A DNA stretch of 36,217 nt from a virus, in the IMG/VR virus record IMGVR_UViG_3300048922_000473, positions 1 through 36,217 of that record; one strand, written 5' to 3'. Positions 5,793 to 24,460 of the stretch are shown in pieces. The notes under the pieces were generated by a model, which saw only the letters and a program-made list of their open reading frames with translations, was not told the DNA's origin and searched no databases. The translations under genes were made by a program, and so were the position numbers. Each line of letters opens with the position of its first letter. The stretch's first letter is position 1.

Positions 5793-6020
5793 ATGCAGAA
5801 AGAATTACGAAAAATGTTTGTAGCCGAAACCGATTCGCTTATGGCGGTGATCGATATTGCCAAACGTGAGGAGCGCAAAGGCCGCGCGCTCGCAGTTTCA
5901 ATCCGCCTTGAGGCGCTGGCAACCCACATCACCAACAAAGGGTTAAACGGTGTTGAAGCAGCTGAACTACTGCGCTGCGAAGCAACCCGCTACGAAAACG
6001 AATCTCAGGAGCTCCACTAA
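5793..6020 (+). CDS. DUF2732-type phage protein
   Basis: A 75-residue helical protein matching the DUF2732 family of P2-like early regions. The signature is a basic VIDIAKREERKGRA segment followed by LEALATHI and a C-terminal LLRCEATRYENE. A strong TAGGAGAGAG ribosome site precedes the ATG. Its stop overlaps the next start by one base (TAATG). Function is unknown. Confidence 0.8.
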   Translation: MQKELRKMFVAETDSLMAVIDIAKREERKGRALAVSIRLEALATHITNKGLNGVEAAELLRCEATRYENESQELH

Positions 6021-6247
6021 TGGCTGACTCTATGGACCTCGTACAACAGCGCGTTGAAGAGGAACGCCAGCGCCACATCCACACAGCCCGCAACAGAGCG
6101 CCGGGCGTTTCCCGTGTGCTTTGCATCGAATGCGATGCGCCGATCCCTCCAGCTCGCCGCCGCGTTATTCCGGGCGTGCAGTGCTGTGTGACCTGTCAGG
6201 AAATCGCAGAGCTTAAAGGCAAGCACTACAACGGAGGCGTTGTATGA
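6020..6247 (+). CDS. TraR/DksA-type C4 zinc-finger protein
   Basis: A 75-residue protein with four zinc-binding cysteines, C35-x2-C38 and C56-x2-C59, and an N-terminal helical coil, as in small DksA/TraR-like phage proteins. TraR-type proteins bind the secondary channel of RNA polymerase and mimic DksA/ppGpp. Whether this one does so is inferred from the family. The long DksA coil is lacking; the N-terminus (about 30 residues) is TraR-sized. It is coupled to the upstream gene (1-bp overlap) and to dam (4-bp ATGA overlap). Confidence 0.88.
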   Translation: MADSMDLVQQRVEEERQRHIHTARNRAPGVSRVLCIECDAPIPPARRRVIPGVQCCVTCQEIAELKGKHYNGGVV

Positions 6248-7095
6248 GCACTATCCTGAAATGGGCGGGAAACAAAACCGCCATCATGTCCGAACTCAAA
6301 AAGCACCTCCCAGATGGCCCTCGACTGGTTGAACCTTTCGCAGGTTCCTGCGCTGTGATGATGGCAACAGACTATCCTTATTATCTTGTTGCGGATATTA
6401 ACCCTGACCTTATAAATCTTTATCAGGTAATTAAAGAAGACGTTAACAGCTTTATTCATTTGGTAGAGCGTATTTTCTCCAAGTTCACTACGGAAGAAGA
6501 TTATTATAAATGCCGCCAGTTTTTTAACACTGTACCCCTGGAGCCAATAGAAAAGGCAGCTTATTTCCTTTTCCTTAATCGTCATTGTTATCGCGGTTTG
6601 TGCCGTTATAACCAGCGCGGTCTTTTCAATGTTCCATATGGTAATTACAAAAAGCCTTATCTGCCTGTCGATGAAATACGTGCATTTGCTGAAAAGGCTG
6701 TGCGCGCGACGTTCATCTGCGCCAGTTATGACGAAACGCTGGCAATGCTGCAGGCGGGTGATGTTGTCTACTGCGATCCGCCTTATGACGGTACTTTTAG
6801 CGGTTATCACACTGCCGGGTTCTCTGATGATGACCAGTATGATTTGGCATCTATTCTGGTGCGCCGGTCATCAGAAGGCCATCCGATCATCGTGTCCAAT
6901 AGCGACACCCGCCTGATTCGTTCGTTTTATCGAAAATTCACCCTTCACCGCATCAGCACAAAACGCAGCATTGGCGTTGCCGCGGGCGAAGGGAAAAAAG
7001 CTGACGAGCTCATTGCGGTTCTTAAACCAAAGATGTGCGTAAGCGTCGATCTAGGTGGCCCTGATTGCTCTGTTGTATGGAAGGTGCCTGCGTGA
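6244..7095 (+). CDS. dam: DNA adenine methyltransferase (Dam)
   Basis: A 283-residue D12-class N6-adenine methyltransferase that probably methylates GATC. Visible motifs: KWAGNK near the N-terminus (AdoMet binding), EPFAGSCAV (motif I), and the catalytic DPPY at residues 178-181. The middle holds the NQRGLFNVPYGNY block typical of Dam and T4-Dam-like enzymes. Length is close to E. coli Dam (278). 186-type phages often carry dam in this early operon. It may protect the genome from restriction or tune replication and packaging. The gene overlaps its upstream neighbour by 4 bp and the next gene by GTGA. Confidence 0.95.
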   Translation: MSTILKWAGNKTAIMSELKKHLPDGPRLVEPFAGSCAVMMATDYPYYLVADINPDLINLYQVIKEDVNSFIHLVERIFSKFTTEEDYYKCRQFFNTVPLEPIEKAAYFLFLNRHCYRGLCRYNQRGLFNVPYGNYKKPYLPVDEIRAFAEKAVRATFICASYDETLAMLQAGDVVYCDPPYDGTFSGYHTAGFSDDDQYDLASILVRRSSEGHPIIVSNSDTRLIRSFYRKFTLHRISTKRSIGVAAGEGKKADELIAVLKPKMCVSVDLGGPDCSVVWKVPA

Positions 7096-7922
7096 AAGGG
7101 GCGCAGCTCGGGGCCCATCATTTTCACGGGACGCCTGTTTGGGGGAGTGCCGGTGATGTTCATCGCATTGCGGTGAGCGGAGCCGGTGCTTTCGTTTCAT
7201 ATGTGCGCCCGGACCAGATTGCAGCATCTCTCAATTTTGCCGCCGCAGTGGGTATTGATAACGGAGCATTTTCAGCATGGATGCGGGGCCTGGTTATTAA
7301 CTGGTGCGAATTCTATGAGTGGCTGCTTGGCTATTACCACCATCCTAAAGTGGCTTTTTTCGTGATCCCTGACGTTGTGGAGGGGGGAGAAAGTGATAAC
7401 GATGCACTGATTCGTCAGGTTCCTCGCATGTTTCGGGATAAGGCGGCTCCTGTCTGGCACCTGCACGAATCTATAGATCGTCTGGTTGAGCTTTGCCGCG
7501 AATGGCCCCGGGTTTGTTTTGGGTCATCTGGAGAATATGCGGTTATCAGGACAGAGCGCTGGCATCGTCGTATGCAGGAGGCTTTCGAAACTATTTACTG
7601 CAAATATACCTTTCAAACCAGAGTTCATGGCCTGCGTATGCTGGATGGGCGTGTGATGGGCAATTATCCACTCGCCACCGCTGACAGCACGAATCTGGCC
7701 TGCAATGTTCCTAAATTCAACTCTAAATATCCTGAACTAACCAGGGCTATCCGCGAGGCTGAGTATTCACGCGGTCTTAGCGAAAAAGAGCTCAAAGCCG
7801 TAATTTTGAAAAACCGTTGCGCCATTCTTAAAGGCGCTATCGAGGCAGTGCGGCCGCCCTCTATCTCTGAATGGTCCTCAAAAGGGTTGCAGCCTTTCCA
7901 GCTTGAACTGGAGATCGCATGA
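7092..7922 (+). CDS. TGT/DpdA-like TIM-barrel protein (putative)
   Basis: A 276-residue protein without a firm name. It has a series of short strand-end motifs, in order: [36 protein letters not shown] and VHGLRM. These resemble phage members of the tRNA-guanine transglycosylase superfamily (DpdA-like), in which D-[NS]-G-A-F carries the active-site aspartate and a second Asp lies in P-D. DpdA inserts 7-deazaguanines into DNA. No zinc site is visible. The assignment is inference. The GTG at 7092 was chosen because it overlaps the dam stop as GTGA and has GGAAGG seven nt upstream. ATG 7077 and TTG 7065 are alternatives. Its stop overlaps the start of A, so it is coupled on both sides, between dam and the replication gene. 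Confidence 0.45.
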
Positions 7923-10273
7923 GCAATTACCGCTATTCCTGGAATGCTGAAAAGAAAGCGGTTAACCCTTATCTGGATACAGATAAGCGTGCCACTTCAT
8001 CCGTGCTTTCAAACCTGATTACTCTCTATGCTGCGGATAACGAGCAGGAACGGCTGCGCCGCGAAGCCCTGAGTAATGAGGTCTGGGATCGCTATTTCTT
8101 CAATGAATCCCGTGATCCTGTTCAGCGGAAAATGGAGCAGGGCCAGCTGCTAAGCCGCGCCAAAATGGCCCGCGAACAGCAGCAATTCAATCCCGATCTG
8201 GTCATCGTTGCTGACGTGAGCGCCCAGCCGGCGCATATCAGTAAGCCGCTTCTTGAACGGATTAAATATTTCGAGGGCCTGGGCAAACCGAAGGCATATT
8301 CCCGCTATCTGCGTGAAACTATCAGGCCGTGCCTGGAACGCCTCGAGCGCGTGCGTACCAGCCAGATTTCTGCGTCATTCCGTTTTATGGCGAGCCACGA
8401 CGGGCTGGAGGGCTTGCTGGTCCTGCCCGAAATGAATCAGGAGCAGGTTAAGCGGTTGTCAACCCTGGTGGCGGCACACATGAGCATGTGTCTGGATGCT
8501 GCCTGCGGTGAGCTGTTTATGGATGAAGACGTTACGCCGGAAGAGATCCGCCGGTCATGGGAAAGGGTGGCCGCTGAGGCTATGCGCCTTGATGTTATCC
8601 CGCCTGCTTTCGAGCAGCTACGCCGTAAAAAGCACCGCCGTAAGCCGGTTCCATACGAGCTTATTCCGGGCTCGCTTGCCCGTATGCTTTGCGCGGACTG
8701 GTGGTATCGCAAGCTGTGGCAGATGCGGTGTGAATGGCGGGAAGAACAGTTGCGCGCTGTCTGCCTGGTTAACAAAAAAGCGTCCCCGTATGTCAGCTAT
8801 GAAGCTGTGATCCACAAACGCGAACAGCGTCGCAAATCACTGGAGTTTTTCCGCTCGCATGAGTTGGTTAACGCCGAAGGTGACACGCTGGATATGGAAG
8901 AAGTGGTAAACGCCAGCAGCAGCAATCCGGCGCACCGGCGCAACGAAATGATGGCCTGCGTTAAGGGGCTGGAGCTGATCGCAGAAATGCGTGGTGAATG
9001 TGCCGTGTTCTATACCATCACCTGCCCGTCACGCTTTCACGCAACGCTCAATAACGGCAGGCCGAACCCGAAATGGACCAGTGCCACGGTCCGCCAGAGC
9101 AGCGATTACCTGGTGAATATGTTTGCCGCCTTCCGTAAGGCTATGCACAAAGCCGGGCTGCGCTGGTATGGCGTTCGCGTTGCTGAGCCACACCATGACG
9201 GCACCGTGCACTGGCACCTGCTTTGCTTCATGCGCAAAAAGGACCGCAAATCCATCACCGCGCTGCTGCGTAAATTCGCCATTCGTGAGGACCGGGAGGA
9301 GTTGGGCACCAATACCGGGCCGCGATTCAAGTCTGAGCTTATTAACCCGCGCAAGGGGACACCGACCAGCTATATCGCCAAATACATCAGTAAAAACATT
9401 GACGGGCGCGGACTGGCGCAGGAAATCAGTAAAGAAACGGGCAGATCGCTGCGCGATAACGCTGAGAACGTAAACGCCTGGGCTTCGCTGCACCGTGTAC
9501 AGCAATTCCGCTTCTTTGGTATTCCTGGTCGCCAGGCATACCGTGAGCTGCGCCTGCTGGCCGGTCAGGCTGCCAGGGCGAAGGGTGACAAGAAGGCAGG
9601 CGCGCCGGTACTGGAAAACCCGCGTCTGGATGCTGTATTGGCCGCAGCGGATGCTGGTTGTTTTGCCACCTACATCATGAAACAGGGCGGCGTCCTGGTT
9701 CCCCGTAAACATCACCTTGTCAGAACTGCCTATGAGCTTAACGACGAACCGAGCACGTACGGCGATCACGGTGTTCGTATTTATGGCATCTGGTCCCCGA
9801 TCATTGAGGGCCGGATCTGCACTCATGCAGTGAAGTGGAAAATGGTTCTTAAAGCCGTTGACCTTCAGGAGGCGACAGCCGACCAGGGCGCTTGCGCCAC
9901 TTGGACTCGTGGCAATAACTGTCCCCCTGTTGAAAATTTGAACCAGACAGGGGGTGAAGTACCGGATATTACTTACATGGAGGAAAAGGCGCTGCAGGAT
10001 TACCTGCATGGAATGGGAAAAAAGGAGAGGCGGGAGTTGGTTGCCCGGCTCAGGCTGGTAAAACCGAAGCGAAGAAAGGCTTACAAGCAGGATATTTCTG
10101 AGCAGCAGCGCCTGCAACTGGAGTATGAGCTGCATTCCAGAGGCTTCAATGGCAGCGAGTATGAGGTGAATTTACTCCTACGCGGCGGCAGCCTTCCGTC
10201 TGGGGGAGGGCTGCGCATCTTTTACCAGAACGGGCGGCTGCGTGAGGATGACAAATGGCGTCAGTATTACTGA
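7919..10273 (+). CDS. A: Replication initiator endonuclease gpA
   Basis: Rolling-circle replication initiator that nicks ori and attaches to the 5' end. It has 784 residues (P2 A is 761). HUH motif: H431-W-H433 in the segment DGTVHWHLL. Two catalytic tyrosines four residues apart, Y485 and Y489 ([10 protein letters not shown]), match the two-tyrosine mechanism of P2 A. In P2 and 186 the origin lies inside this gene and A acts preferentially in cis; I did not locate the nick site. The C-terminal region (about 650-784) is charged and variable. The start ATG overlaps the upstream TGA as ATGA. It is the last gene of the cII operon, and about 90 bp separate its stop from the LexA-controlled cassette. 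Confidence 0.95.
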
Positions 10274-11027: not shown

Positions 11028-11915
11028 TTAAATTCTCAATGTATCGATAACCGCTCTTAGAGCGGGTGACACATTGCGGTGCGGATAATAGAGATATGAA
11101 CCTTCCAGGCGCTGACTGTAGCATTGCAAAACTCTGATCAGCGCCCCCTGTTCTATATCATCAGAAACCAATTCCTCCGGAACATAAGCCAGTCCCAGGC
11201 CTAGCCGGGCGGCTTTGGCTTCCATATAGCTGTCAGCAAAGGCCCATTGTCCCTGAGGTTGATGGGTTATCTTTTTACCGTCTTGATTGAGTTCCCATGC
11301 ATACAGGCTGCCGTCTCCAAACTGGTAAGCGATGCAGGGATGAATAACTAAATCGGAGGGAGTTTGCGGAAATCCGTAGCGACGAAAGTGCTCGGGCGTG
11401 CCGACAATGGCCATCTCCATATCGGGCGAAATGCGCACAGCGACCATACCGCTACCTACTTCCGAGCCCAGACGTATACCGGCATCGAAGCGCTCAGCAA
11501 TAATATCGACAAACCGGCTTTCGCTGATGAGCTCCAGCCGAATATCTGGGTAGCGTTGTTTAAACACCGCCAGCTTCGGCAGCAGCACTTTATCAATGGC
11601 GTGCTGACTGGCATTAATACGGACCGTACCCGATGGGGTATGGCGATAATGGGCCAGCGTGGCAAGCCCCATATCTAAAGCGTCAAATCCAGATTCGACG
11701 GTTCGATAGAGCAACTCGCCGGCATGGGTGAGCGATAACTTGCGCGTGGTACGCACCAGAAGCTGCACGCCCAGTCGTTCTTCCAGCTCGCGCACTGCAC
11801 GACTAATTCCTGACTGCGCCAGGCCAAGCCTCTGCGCGGCGGCAGTAAAACTCCCTTCTCGCACGACCTGCATAAACAGATAGAGATCGTTATAGTTTTC
11901 CCGTTTCGCCATCAT
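11028..11915 (-). CDS. LysR-family transcriptional regulator
   Basis: A 295-residue protein with the standard LysR layout. The winged helix-turn-helix covers residues about 8-66 (GSFTAAAQRLGLAQSGISRAV, then RTTRKLSLTHAG). The effector-binding domain covers about 90-292, with the usual GTVRINAS start of the linker region. It is closest in style to the AaeR/DhcR-type group with substrate-binding proteins of the CrgA kind; the effector is unknown. It diverges from the hydrolase gene across 170 bp, the classic arrangement of a LysR regulator and its target. It has no phage counterpart in P2 or 186. The start ATG has GGGGAAGG upstream. Confidence 0.93.
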   Translation of the reverse strand: MMAKRENYNDLYLFMQVVREGSFTAAAQRLGLAQSGISRAVRELEERLGVQLLVRTTRKLSLTHAGELLYRTVESGFDALDMGLATLAHYRHTPSGTVRINASQHAIDKVLLPKLAVFKQRYPDIRLELISESRFVDIIAERFDAGIRLGSEVGSGMVAVRISPDMEMAIVGTPEHFRRYGFPQTPSDLVIHPCIAYQFGDGSLYAWELNQDGKKITHQPQGQWAFADSYMEAKAARLGLGLAYVPEELVSDDIEQGALIRVLQCYSQRLEGSYLYYPHRNVSPALRAVIDTLRI

Positions 11916-11950
11916 CCTTCCCCTGCTGCAGCATCACAATTCAGAACAAT

Positions 11951-12009
11951 ATGTTATCAATCTTAGCATTTTTCACCCTCTAATCAGTACTATTTCTGCT
12001 AACTATAAT
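11951..12009 (+). promoter_or_regulatory. Probable LysR-activated promoter of the hydrolase gene
   Basis: A perfect -10 box TATAAT lies at 12004-12009, but no good -35 is found 16-18 bp upstream, as in activator-dependent promoters. An imperfect dyad ATGTTA-N7-TAGCAT (11951-11969) is centred about 56 bp upstream of the expected start, a plausible regulator site. Binding is inferred. Confidence 0.45.
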
Positions 12010-12085
12010 GTGCGCATTGCAACAAAGCACAGCAGCGTTGTCCGTAGGAAACCTGTTTCTGGCACGTTTTATGAAGGGGATTTTG

Positions 12086-13222
12086 ATGACTGCTTTCACC
12101 CAAAAATTGACAACTGCGATACCCGCCCTGTTGTTATGCGCATCATTAAGTGGAGTCACAAATATGAGTTACGCTGATACAGCCAATCCGAACGCGCCCG
12201 TTTCGCTGGTCGAAAAATGGGATAAAACTTTTGCTGAGAGCACGAAAGTTGATCACCGTAAGGTGACCTTTCCGAACCGATACGGGATCACCTTAGTCGG
12301 GGATCTCTACATCCCGAAGGATCGTGGTGATCGCAAGCTGGCAGCTATTGCTGTTAGCGGCCCCTTCGGGGCGGTGAAAGAGCAATCCAGCGGCCTGTAT
12401 GCGCAGACGCTGGCTGAACAGGGATTTGTCACTCTGGCTTTCGACCCTTCATACACGGGCGAAAGCGGCGGCTACCCGCGCAACGTCGCATCTCCGGATA
12501 TCAACACCGAGGATTTCAGCGCGGCGGTTGATTTCTTAGGCCTGCAAAAAGAGGTGGATCGCAACCGTATCGGGCTGCTCGGTATCTGCGGATGGGGCGG
12601 CATGGCCTTAAACGACGCCGCGATGGACACGCGTGTCAAGGCGGTGGCGACCAGCGTGATGTATGACATGAGCCGTGCGATGGGGCATGGCGTGGGCGAT
12701 GGCAAAGACCGCTATACCACTGCCGATCGTCGTGCCGTATTGCAGTATCTGAACACGCAGCGCTGGAAGGATGCGGAAAATGGCGCTTTCGCGCCAGGCG
12801 GGCATGACATTTATGTTGATGAGAAGGGCAACGTCACCGCTTCCGATCGTATTCTGCCGGAAACTCTGCCCGCGAATCCTAACCCAGTATTGAAAGAGTT
12901 CTTTGATTATTACCGCATGCCGCGTGGTTTCCATGAGCGTTCGGTCAACTCAACCGGTGCCTGGAACGCAACCATGCCACTGTCATTTATGAATATGCCG
13001 CTGCTGAGTTACGCCAATGAAGTTACTATCCCTACACTCATCGTGACCGGCGAAAAAGCCCATTCACGCTATTTTGCTGAAGATGCCTTTAAGGCAATCG
13101 GCAGCAAAGAGAAAGAGTTAGTGATTGTCCCTGGGGCAAACCATGTTGATCTGTACGACAACGTTGCGGGTAAGATCCCATTTGCCAAATTTGAGCAATT
13201 TTTCAAAGCAAACTTAAGGTAA
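12086..13222 (+). CDS. Exported alpha/beta hydrolase with Cys nucleophile
   Basis: A 378-residue hydrolase of the dienelactone-hydrolase-like, YcjY-type group. A signal peptide is visible (basic start, hydrophobic LLLCASLSG, probable cleavage near SYADT, about residue 31), so the mature enzyme should be periplasmic. The nucleophile elbow reads G-I-C168-G-W-G-G, cysteine in place of the usual serine, as in dienelactone hydrolase. The catalytic His is H353 in the segment GANHVD; the acid is probably the D or E in the TGEKAHSRYF region. Start choice: ATG 12086 has AAGGGGA six nt upstream, while the upstream ATG at 12008 lies inside the -10 box and cannot be transcribed from it. The substrate is unknown. 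It is the likely target of the divergent LysR gene and is upstream of an exporter. Confidence 0.85.
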   Translation: MTAFTQKLTTAIPALLLCASLSGVTNMSYADTANPNAPVSLVEKWDKTFAESTKVDHRKVTFPNRYGITLVGDLYIPKDRGDRKLAAIAVSGPFGAVKEQSSGLYAQTLAEQGFVTLAFDPSYTGESGGYPRNVASPDINTEDFSAAVDFLGLQKEVDRNRIGLLGICGWGGMALNDAAMDTRVKAVATSVMYDMSRAMGHGVGDGKDRYTTADRRAVLQYLNTQRWKDAENGAFAPGGHDIYVDEKGNVTASDRILPETLPANPNPVLKEFFDYYRMPRGFHERSVNSTGAWNATMPLSFMNMPLLSYANEVTIPTLIVTGEKAHSRYFAEDAFKAIGSKEKELVIVPGANHVDLYDNVAGKIPFAKFEQFFKANLR

Positions 13223-13239
13223 CCCGAAAAGTTTACCAG

Positions 13240-13266
13240 GCCACCTGTCATAAACGGGTGGCTTTT
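13240..13266 (+). terminator. Rho-independent terminator after the hydrolase gene
   Basis: Stem GCCACC (13240-13245) pairs with GGTGGC (13257-13262), followed by TTTTA. It lies 17 nt after the hydrolase stop and suggests that the MFS gene has its own promoter or depends on readthrough. Confidence 0.65.
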
Positions 13267-13399
13267 ACCTGCCTGGTGTGACGCCGAATATGTCACATCG
13301 CCCCATATTCTCACCCACCTATTATGTCGTTATTCCCTGAATAACTTCTGACCCGACTGCGCCTGAATCTGGCTGGTTCGATATTAAGGGATGCTAATA

Positions 13400-14593
13400 A
13401 TGTCCACTGTAAGTCTAAAACCATCATACGAAAAAAAGCATGCATACTGGAGCGGCGTATTTGCCATGACGCTTTGCGTGTTTGTGCTGATCGCTTCTGA
13501 GTTTATGCCAGTCAGCCTGCTTACGCTCATTGCCCGCGATTTGCACGTTACCGAAGGGTTGGCAGGGCAAGGAATTGCCGTCTCTGGCGCACTGGCAGTG
13601 CTGACCAGTCTGACTATCTCCCATATTGCCGGAGACCTGAATCGTAAATATCTTCTGCTTGGGCTAACGGTCTTAATGGCCATATCAGGGTTAGTTATCA
13701 CCATGGCGCCTGACTATCCGATTTATATGCTGGGGAGGGCTCTGATTGGCGTCGTCATCGGAGGGTTCTGGTCAATGTCGGCTGCAACCGCCATTCGGCT
13801 CGTGCCACAGCACCAGGTTCCCCGCGCACTGGCAATTTTTAACGGCGGTAACGCGCTGGCCACCGTTGTGGCTGCGCCGCTTGGTAGTTATCTGGGGACA
13901 ACGGTCGGTTGGCGTGGGGCCTTTTTATGTCTCGTCCCTCTTGCGATAGCTGCGTTCATCTGGCAATGGTTCAGCCTGCCTTCGATGGAAAGCGATAAAA
14001 CACAAAAACCACAGGGGTCTGTGCTTCGTCTGTTCAGCGTTGCCATCGTACCAACGGGAATGCTTGCCTGCGGGCTCTTCTTTATGGGACAGTTTGCTTT
14101 GTTTACCTACGTGCGCCCCTTTCTGGAGAGCGTCACCAGAGTGGGACCTTCTAACCTTTCTCTGATTTTGCTTGCAATAGGCATAGCAGGTTTTGTCGGC
14201 ACAATGATCGTCTCAACATTCCTGAACGCCAAATTTTACAAGACCTTAATCATGATCCCGTTGCTTATGGCCGCGATTACTGGTGCGTTACTGCTGGTCG
14301 GACACCACATCTGGGCCGTTGCCGTATTATTAAGCCTGTGGGGGCTACTTGCGACGGCTGCGCCAACAGGATGGTGGACATGGATAGCACGAGCGTTACC
14401 CGAAGATGCAGAGAGGGGTGGTGGCCTCATGGTTGCGGTGATCCAGCTATCGATTGCGCTTGGTTCAACGGCTGGAGGTCTGGCATTCGACAGTCTGGGA
14501 TGGAGAAGTGCATTTGGTTTAAGTGGTTTGTTACTACTGGGGGCGGTAGTGATGACATATGCAACATCCCGTCAAAATAGGAAGGTACACTAA
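13400..14593 (+). CDS. NepI-like MFS exporter
   Basis: A 397-residue major facilitator protein with about 12 hydrophobic segments. It resembles E. coli NepI, a proton-driven purine ribonucleoside efflux pump, in EFMPVSLLT of helix 1, GGFWSMSAATA near helix 4, RLVP, GQFALFTYVRP in helix 7 and the VAVIQL segment near helix 11. NepI itself has about the same length (396). The substrate here is unknown; nucleosides or a product of the upstream hydrolase are possible. Start: ATG 13400 with AAGGG nine nt upstream; ATG 13391 has no spacing for it. The gene stands 177 bp after the hydrolase, separated by a terminator-like hairpin. Confidence 0.88.
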   Translation: MSTVSLKPSYEKKHAYWSGVFAMTLCVFVLIASEFMPVSLLTLIARDLHVTEGLAGQGIAVSGALAVLTSLTISHIAGDLNRKYLLLGLTVLMAISGLVITMAPDYPIYMLGRALIGVVIGGFWSMSAATAIRLVPQHQVPRALAIFNGGNALATVVAAPLGSYLGTTVGWRGAFLCLVPLAIAAFIWQWFSLPSMESDKTQKPQGSVLRLFSVAIVPTGMLACGLFFMGQFALFTYVRPFLESVTRVGPSNLSLILLAIGIAGFVGTMIVSTFLNAKFYKTLIMIPLLMAAITGALLLVGHHIWAVAVLLSLWGLLATAAPTGWWTWIARALPEDAERGGGLMVAVIQLSIALGSTAGGLAFDSLGWRSAFGLSGLLLLGAVVMTYATSRQNRKVH

Positions 14594-23181: not shown

Positions 23182-23623
23182 CCTGCAGAGGGTGGATGAC
23201 TGGCTGGCGGCCCTGCTGGCGAATCTGGAACCGGCAGCCCGCAACCGTATGATGCGACAACTGGCGCAGGAGCTGCGCCGGTCGCAACAGCAAAATATCA
23301 GGCTGCAGCGCAATCCAGACGGCACTACCTTTGAGCCGCGCCGGATGACGGCCAGAAGTAAAAAGGGGCGCATCAAGCGCCAGATGTTCGCCAAATTGCG
23401 CACCACTAAATACCTGAAAACCGCAGCCACTGCGGACTCTGCCAGCGTGCAGTTTGAGGGGAAAGTCCAGCGCATCGCCCGTGTTCACCATTATGGTCTG
23501 CGTGATCGAGTCAGACGCAACGGCCCGGAGGCCCGGTACCCGGCACGCCGTCTTTTGGGTATCAACGATGTGATAGAAGAATTAACACGGGATACTCTTC
23601 TACGCTGGATTATTAGGTTGTGA
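23174..23623 (+). CDS. S: Tail completion protein gpS
   Basis: Tail completion protein, 149 residues (P2 S is 150). Conserved LQRVDDWLAALLANL, RMTARSKKGRIK and YPARRLLGIN. GTG start at 23174 with GGTGA upstream, overlapping R. The last 24 nt overlap the end of the convergent DUF2971 cargo gene; the S C-terminus appears complete (TLLRWIIRL). Confidence 0.92.
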   Translation: MDDLQRVDDWLAALLANLEPAARNRMMRQLAQELRRSQQQNIRLQRNPDGTTFEPRRMTARSKKGRIKRQMFAKLRTTKYLKTAATADSASVQFEGKVQRIARVHHYGLRDRVRRNGPEARYPARRLLGINDVIEELTRDTLLRWIIRL

Positions 23624-24406
23624 ATTATATAAAGTAATTTGCTCAATTGCTTCGTCTATAGATATTTTAATGAATGCCCATTCATAAATATCGAAGAAGC
23701 AAACGTATATTTTACATTCTGGGAGGTGTTGAGTGATTCTATCTCGCATTGTTTTTAAATAATCATGCTTGTATGCATTTCTAAGGCCGATGTAAATTTC
23801 CTTAATGCTGGAGCTGCTTATGGGCTGTATTTCATTTCTATATCGTGAAATATTTCTTACCACCCTAACTTCTTCTTCGTATGACCAATAAGCAGGTTTG
23901 TAGAGAAAGGTTCTTTGTAGTGCTTCCAGAAAATCAGGATTGTAATGAAACTGCATTCCTTCAAAGAAATTGAGATTATCAGAGTTTATGTAAGGATTAT
24001 GGGGTTTAGTTGATGCATAAATAACACTGCCATACTTTGCTGGGATGACATTCAAACCCTCATCATTTAATTCTGCTTCGTTGGCATCTATGCCAAAAAC
24101 AACTCCTGCATGCGAGCCATTATCCTTATCAAGCAAGATGCTTTTTTTATCATCATAATTTGCACCCTTACCATAATGTGCCCACATCAGAGGATTTAAT
24201 GGAGCGCGAGTCAAAGATAAAATTCCATATGATATGGAAGCGGAAAGAAATTTTAAAGTTTGTTCTTTATATTGTTCTTCCGAGCCATAGTGTAAACCTG
24301 TTAATTCAAAAGGATCGTTTAGAGATGATGCTCTTGAAAATTTCAATGTTGAATTTTTTATAATTAAGTCTGCTGTTTCAGAGTCGACATATTTATATAG
24401 AATCAT
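23600..24406 (-). CDS. DUF2971 family cargo protein
   Basis: A 268-residue protein matching DUF2971: LYKYV near the start, SLNDPFE at about 30-40, LSLT-x5-PLMWAHYG near 70-80, HAGVVFGID and later WSYEEEVRVV. The conserved pattern suggests an enzyme fold, but no function is established; members are found in defence-like neighbourhoods. It is AT-rich, antisense to all flanking late genes and lies exactly at the S-V boundary, overlapping S by 24 nt. ATG 24406 has AAGG seven nt upstream; a TTG at 24412 is an alternative. It would be transcribed from its own promoter in the lysogen. Confidence 0.88.
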   Translation of the reverse strand: MILYKYVDSETADLIIKNSTLKFSRASSLNDPFELTGLHYGSEEQYKEQTLKFLSASISYGILSLTRAPLNPLMWAHYGKGANYDDKKSILLDKDNGSHAGVVFGIDANEAELNDEGLNVIPAKYGSVIYASTKPHNPYINSDNLNFFEGMQFHYNPDFLEALQRTFLYKPAYWSYEEEVRVVRNISRYRNEIQPISSSSIKEIYIGLRNAYKHDYLKTMRDRITQHLPECKIYVCFFDIYEWAFIKISIDEAIEQITLYNSQPNNPA

Positions 24407-24460
24407 TTTCAAGCCTTAGATTAAATTGTTTCTATTAACTTCCATGGCCTTAGATGTTAT

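Follow-up and report, generated by a model that had tools for sequence, protein, structure and literature searches.

The stretch analysed here (hereafter the window) is the whole 36,217-nucleotide virus sequence of IMG/VR record IMGVR_UViG_3300048922_000473. On its plus strand lies a conserved block that begins with a small zinc-finger gene at positions 6020-6247, which is of the TraR/DksA type in annotated relatives. This is followed by dam (6244-7095, 283 amino acids), encoding a D12-class adenine-N6 DNA methyltransferase, then by the 276-residue dpdA-like gene that is our subject (7092-7922, start codon GTG, stop codon TGA), and then by the P2-type gene A (7919-10273, 784 amino acids), encoding an origin-nicking replication endonuclease. 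The dam product matches PF02086 in Pfam (E 1.3e-67) and scores 296 bits against the D12-class Dam model TIGR00571, which has a cut-off of 115; the A product matches PF05840 (E 1.2e-128). The original prediction had described the dpdA-like gene as tightly coupled to both of its neighbours, and both overlaps can be read directly in the sequence. The dam stop and the dpdA start share the letters GTGA at 7092-7095, and the dpdA stop and the A start share ATGA at 7919-7922, both on the plus strand. A GGAAGG 5' of the first overlap is a possible ribosome-binding site for dpdA, and a GGAG is found 5' of the second.

Over 100 viral loci contain relatives of dpdA. So do 107 of 5,426 complete E. coli genomes, or about 2%, and the records listed there call them "hypothetical". 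The ratio dN/dS between dpdA and its nearest relatives is about 0.04-0.06. Given this purifying selection, together with the conservation in viral loci and E. coli genomes, the open reading frame is a real gene.

Other parts of the window were noted as well. A cargo region at 11028-14593, flanked by the replication module and the portal gene, has genes for a LysR regulator, a PETase/dienelactone-hydrolase-like alpha/beta hydrolase and an MFS transporter. A 270-residue open reading frame at 23600-24412, on the minus strand and thus opposite to the surrounding phage genes, matches the PADLOC candidate defence family PDC-S31 (E 7e-19). Beside the integrase, the minus strand of 1-2838 holds two open reading frames of 521 and 403 amino acids with no Pfam or PADLOC match; the shorter overlaps the integrase frame, and its true start is uncertain. 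The leftmost 3 kb of the window matched no plasmid.

The protein encoded at 7092-7922 matches PHROG 887, "queuine tRNA-ribosyltransferase", over nearly its full length (E 5e-93), and it is of the singleton type of phage DpdAs. A family profile built from 28 of its relatives finds the DpdA of Escherichia phage CAjan (53.8 bits, E 2e-18), and a profile-profile comparison with a CAjan-type set using hhalign gave 97.9% (E 3.8e-13). The decoy profiles in this comparison, Dam and Vut, did not match the family, and a cellular (bacterial) TGT profile aligned only over a short fragment at DSGGFQ. The function of the CAjan enzyme is genetically proven, since a dpdA deletion in that phage loses all dPreQ0 (PMC6884629). 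Identity between the two proteins is about 20%, and CAjan DpdA has the same aspartates and histidine.

Other searches with the protein gave no assignment. Neither Pfam nor PADLOC yielded a match at E 1, and NCBIfam yielded none. The candidates rejected in this way were a bacterial or archaeal TGT (PF01702), whose CxCxxC zinc motif is also absent from the sequence, and an anti-phage defence protein of the kinds modelled in PADLOC. Sequence searches of the PDB with the protein alone or as a profile returned nothing useful.

All five motifs listed in the original prediction (DNGAFS, PDV, PVWH, GSSG and HGLRM) are present in the order claimed. DNGAFS (residues 56-61, 7257-7274) aligns with LDSGAFS of CAjan DpdA and TDSGGFQ of TGT. 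The PDV motif, which contains D94, lies at 7368-7376 (IPDV being residues 92-95). PVWHLHE (residues 120-126, 7449-7469) includes P120, H123 and E126, and FGSSG (residues 143-147, 7518-7532) includes G144; all four residues are invariant, CAjan included. The invariant H179 is in VHGLRM (residues 178-183, 7623-7640), which aligns with KLHAFG of CAjan. A sixth motif, ADSTN (residues 197-201, 7680-7694), was absent from the earlier list; it aligns with SCDSSS of CAjan and carries the second aspartate, D198, the presumed nucleophile. All six motifs are encoded on the plus strand. In an alignment of 47 sequences that included the CAjan type, twelve positions were invariant: D56, A59, P120, H123, E126, G144, W157, R160, H179, P193, D198 and S199. 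Both putative catalytic aspartates, D56 and D198, are thus kept in 47 of 47 sequences. A conserved histidine (position 196) has been reported as present in DpdA and missing from DpdA2 (PMC6884629), and H179 may correspond to it.

An AlphaFold2 model of the protein is a (beta/alpha)8 barrel, with a pLDDT of 85.8 over the full length and 87.1 over the core. In the model the conserved residues are placed where TIM barrels have their active site, namely at the C-terminal end of a strand or immediately beyond it. D56 ends strand E52-56, H123 ends E121-123 and D198 ends E196-198; G144-S146 are at the end of E140-144, the PDV motif follows E87-91, and H179 is within E177-180. When the full-length model was compared with the PDB, unrelated TIM barrels dominated, and the archaeal TGT structure 1j2b (ArcTGT) was a weak match at rank 6 (E 0.011). 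With the model trimmed to the barrel and diverse sequences added, the best and only significant match was Cap10 (9ntn; E 6.6e-4, probability 1.00, TM 0.63). Matches in a viral library were to phage "queuine tRNA-ribosyltransferases". The first of these searches might suggest an unrelated TIM barrel, or a decayed and catalytically dead relative. We consider either very improbable, given the invariance of both aspartates and the histidine, a dN/dS of about 0.05 and the strong profile homology to CAjan DpdA.

Cap10, from type IV CBASS, is described in PMC11996544 as an enzyme of the tRNA transglycosylase family that handles a 7-deazaguanine conjugate. It acts with Cap9 in modifying a protein N-terminus, unlike DpdA. 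Since an enzyme of protein deazaguanylation is the top PDB match of the core, one might ask whether the protein studied here has likewise shifted to a target other than nucleic acid. Fold matches show kinship only, however, and the genes found beside this family encode DNA methylases, the A protein or YhhQ. Cap9, the partner of Cap10, is QueC-like, and the CAjan queries found no QueC-like gene in the window. Such a shift of target therefore seems to us hardly probable. The expectation that a structure search would return a TGT barrel is borne out by the predicted fold and its match to TGT-family Cap10. Taken with PHROG 887, the homology to CAjan DpdA and the invariant residues, this makes membership of the DpdA/TGT superfamily well supported, as had been proposed from the motifs.

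Unlike the window, CAjan encodes the whole preQ0 pathway and a transporter for preQ0 along with its DpdA. It had been predicted that the window contains no preQ0 biosynthesis genes and that a host precursor would be needed. In agreement with the first point, CAjan FolE, QueD, QueE and QueC used as queries matched nothing in the window. The second is supported by the presence of QueC in all four of the four host genomes that carry dpdA relatives, and by YhhQ neighbours in relatives. YhhQ is a known preQ0 transporter (PMC6884629). In 11 of the 58 clusters formed at 90% identity, dpdA touches or overlaps a YhhQ/Vut_1 gene. Vut_1 matches were obtained for five of the six YhhQ-type genes scanned with Pfam, with scores over the curated cut-off in three cases, and the remaining Vut genes were found by a profile built from this first set. 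Among the 174 loci scanned for Vut, every match touches dpdA except CAjan's own. This adjacency ties the family to 7-deazaguanine salvage. At one locus (L075:5100-5693) a QueE-like gene, 34% identical to CAjan QueE, is found just 5' of a dpdA relative, and so some members of the clade adjoin a preQ0 biosynthesis gene.

Gene A is directly 3' of dpdA in 17 of the 58 clusters and dam adjoins dpdA in 11, while dam and YhhQ occur together beside dpdA in none. The block in P2-like phages is modular: Fels-2 has dam and then A, the Salmonella phages SW9 and SEN1 have dpdA and then A, and the order dam-dpdA-A is found in the window, in E. coli PO06101 and in many others. On a phylogenetic tree the dam-associated copies of dpdA fall on several branches. 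Many branch supports are moderate, and counts of labels on the tree do not prove independent gains of the dam association. Relatives in siphoviruses and phage-plasmids occur without gene A.

The 11 clusters with dam include loci in which methyltransferase domains are fused. In Rosenbergiella metrosideri a single open reading frame of 572 amino acids on the plus strand (L078:7968-9683) has DpdA as its N-terminal part and a D12-class Dam as its C-terminal part; phage tail genes adjoin it, and a gene for a Rep_3 replication initiator is near. At three other loci, of which L141 is also counted among the 11 clusters, dpdA overlaps a gene for a fusion of a C5-cytosine methyltransferase with Dam, of 810-967 amino acids (L141:4753-7377, L208:4798-7230 and L209:4810-7713). 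The last two are in Pantoea phage-plasmids, and pMMD61212-C_C and pPSP-26e carry the overlapping dpdA and C5-methyltransferase/Dam genes. The annotation of the L209 fusion names it a multidrug transporter permease, at odds with its domains. As gene A is not beside dpdA in these fusion contexts, the link between DpdA and Dam is not a mere side effect of a shared cargo slot in P2-like phages.

The YhhQ and dam neighbours, with the fusions, point to DNA as the substrate and to host preQ0 as the precursor. An RNA substrate, whether tRNA or another, acted on by a TGT-superfamily transglycosylase during infection, would be in keeping with the name queuine tRNA-ribosyltransferase that records give to relatives, and with the finding of only trace dADG in the closest tested relatives. 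We regard this as unlikely, because the family's alignment with CAjan DpdA is much stronger than that with cellular TGT, it has neither a Pfam TGT match nor the zinc motif, and its fusion and operon partners are DNA methyltransferases. Moreover, all 26 of the 26 bacterial genomes sampled have a TGT of their own. We favor the explanation that the gene encodes a DNA-guanine transglycosylase of the DpdA type, belonging to the singleton clade of phages without a preQ0 pathway and using host preQ0, and we consider this probable.

The modified bases of characterised relatives bear on what such an enzyme would do. The DNA of the closest tested relative, Pantoea phage vB_PagS_MED16, contains both dADG and m6dA in trace amounts, with 354 dADG per 10^6 nucleotides (PMC8306585). 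From the published levels we calculate about 33 dADG and about 58 m6dA per genome. The 244 GATC sites of MED16 would give 488 m6A if fully methylated, against the roughly 58 measured, so these figures do not support a simple model of shared sites with full GATC methylation. Salmonella phage 7-11 DNA has trace dADG, at 50 per 10^6 (PMC6884629), and in CAjan about 30% of G is modified. Enzymes whose sites include G still cut MED16 DNA (PMC8306585). Because the modified-base levels are trace, strong protection against restriction is unproven for this clade. Either the enzyme of the singleton clade is site-specific, or it is limited by its precursor, or the measured base is partly an off-target product. 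It is conceivable that the trace base in these phages comes from carry-over or off-target activity. In the window GATC occurs 148 times against 170 expected, mildly below expectation, and the literature we found reports no modified base for any P2-like phage.

Modification confined to a small number of defined sites in the DNA, such as the origin, packaging sites or sites shared with Dam, would serve regulation or marking and not bulk protection. It would be a special case of the explanation that we favor, and both can hold. The small number of dADG per MED16 genome fits it, as does the tight coupling to the origin-nicking A and to Dam in the clusters counted above. The coupling to A may merely reflect the cargo slot of P2-like phages, however, siphovirus and phage-plasmid relatives being without A, and there is no known sequence motif for the singleton clade. 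We hold the restriction to few sites to be possible but doubtful.

By the DpdA-type mechanism that we prefer, D56 and D198 in the active site of the barrel would take guanine out of phage DNA by way of a covalent enzyme-sugar intermediate, and a 7-deazaguanine base would be inserted in its place. This base would be preQ0, which the closest relatives tested contain as dADG, and it would be drawn from the queuosine pathway of the host. DpdA would be translated together with Dam and A, and we propose on account of this co-translation that G and A are modified during phage replication. The purpose would most likely be protection from restriction or marking of the phage DNA. Judged from sequence, modification of the window phage's own DNA is likely. 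A further suggestion, which we make only tentatively, is that DpdA and Dam form one modification unit working at the same or neighboring sites, with G and A modified together at replication and, in the Pantoea phage-plasmids, C as well. If this is true, the two enzymes would make up a combined module for base modification, which the literature found does not describe as such.

Among the closest known arrangements is that of SW9 and SEN1, which are P2-like phages of the genus Eganvirus (Peduoviridae). Their DpdAs are 79% identical to that of the window, are annotated in RefSeq as queuine tRNA-ribosyltransferase and likewise abut gene A, and a DksA-like zinc-finger gene is present in the same stretch, as in the window. 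These phages differ from the window in having no dam 5' of dpdA, its place being taken by a DUF5405 gene, and their A proteins are only about 34% identical to that of the window. A 2021 paper already placed the SW9 and SEN1 proteins nearest to MED16 DpdA among its viral homologues (PMC8306585). The suggestion that a DpdA would be new for P2-like phages therefore does not hold. The combination of two modifications, dADG and m6dA, in one phage is also already reported, for the siphovirus MED16 (PMC8306585).

MED16 has a DpdA 57% identical to that of the window and no preQ0 genes, and it encodes a DNA adenine methylase. Unlike the window phage it is a siphovirus in which dpdA is not beside gene A, and its methylase gene is not adjacent to dpdA; the profile for the window type of Dam missed this methylase. 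Phage 7-11 has a 36% identical singleton DpdA, again without preQ0 genes, but it is a 90-kb phage of the Grimontviridae, and the stretch read contained no Dam-type gene. Fels-2 and P2-like phages of Klebsiella have a Dam 70-73% identical to that of the window (72% for Fels-2) in the same slot just before A; unlike the window, Fels-2 has no dpdA between dam and A. Our literature search, which covered few subscription journals, found no account of a DpdA from Peduoviridae and none of a fusion of DpdA with Dam. In the literature found, neither this fusion nor the dam-dpdA-A cassette, widespread as it is, appears to be described.

A DpdA working on DNA in the window phage would extend 7-deazaguanine DNA modification to the P2-like prophages, a large and easily induced group of temperate phages. 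The DpdA-Dam and C5-methyltransferase/Dam fusions provide a contextual argument, which we did not find in the literature searched, that the DpdA clade without a preQ0 pathway works on DNA. They bear on a question left open in PMC6884629, namely what, if anything, the singleton DpdAs modify.
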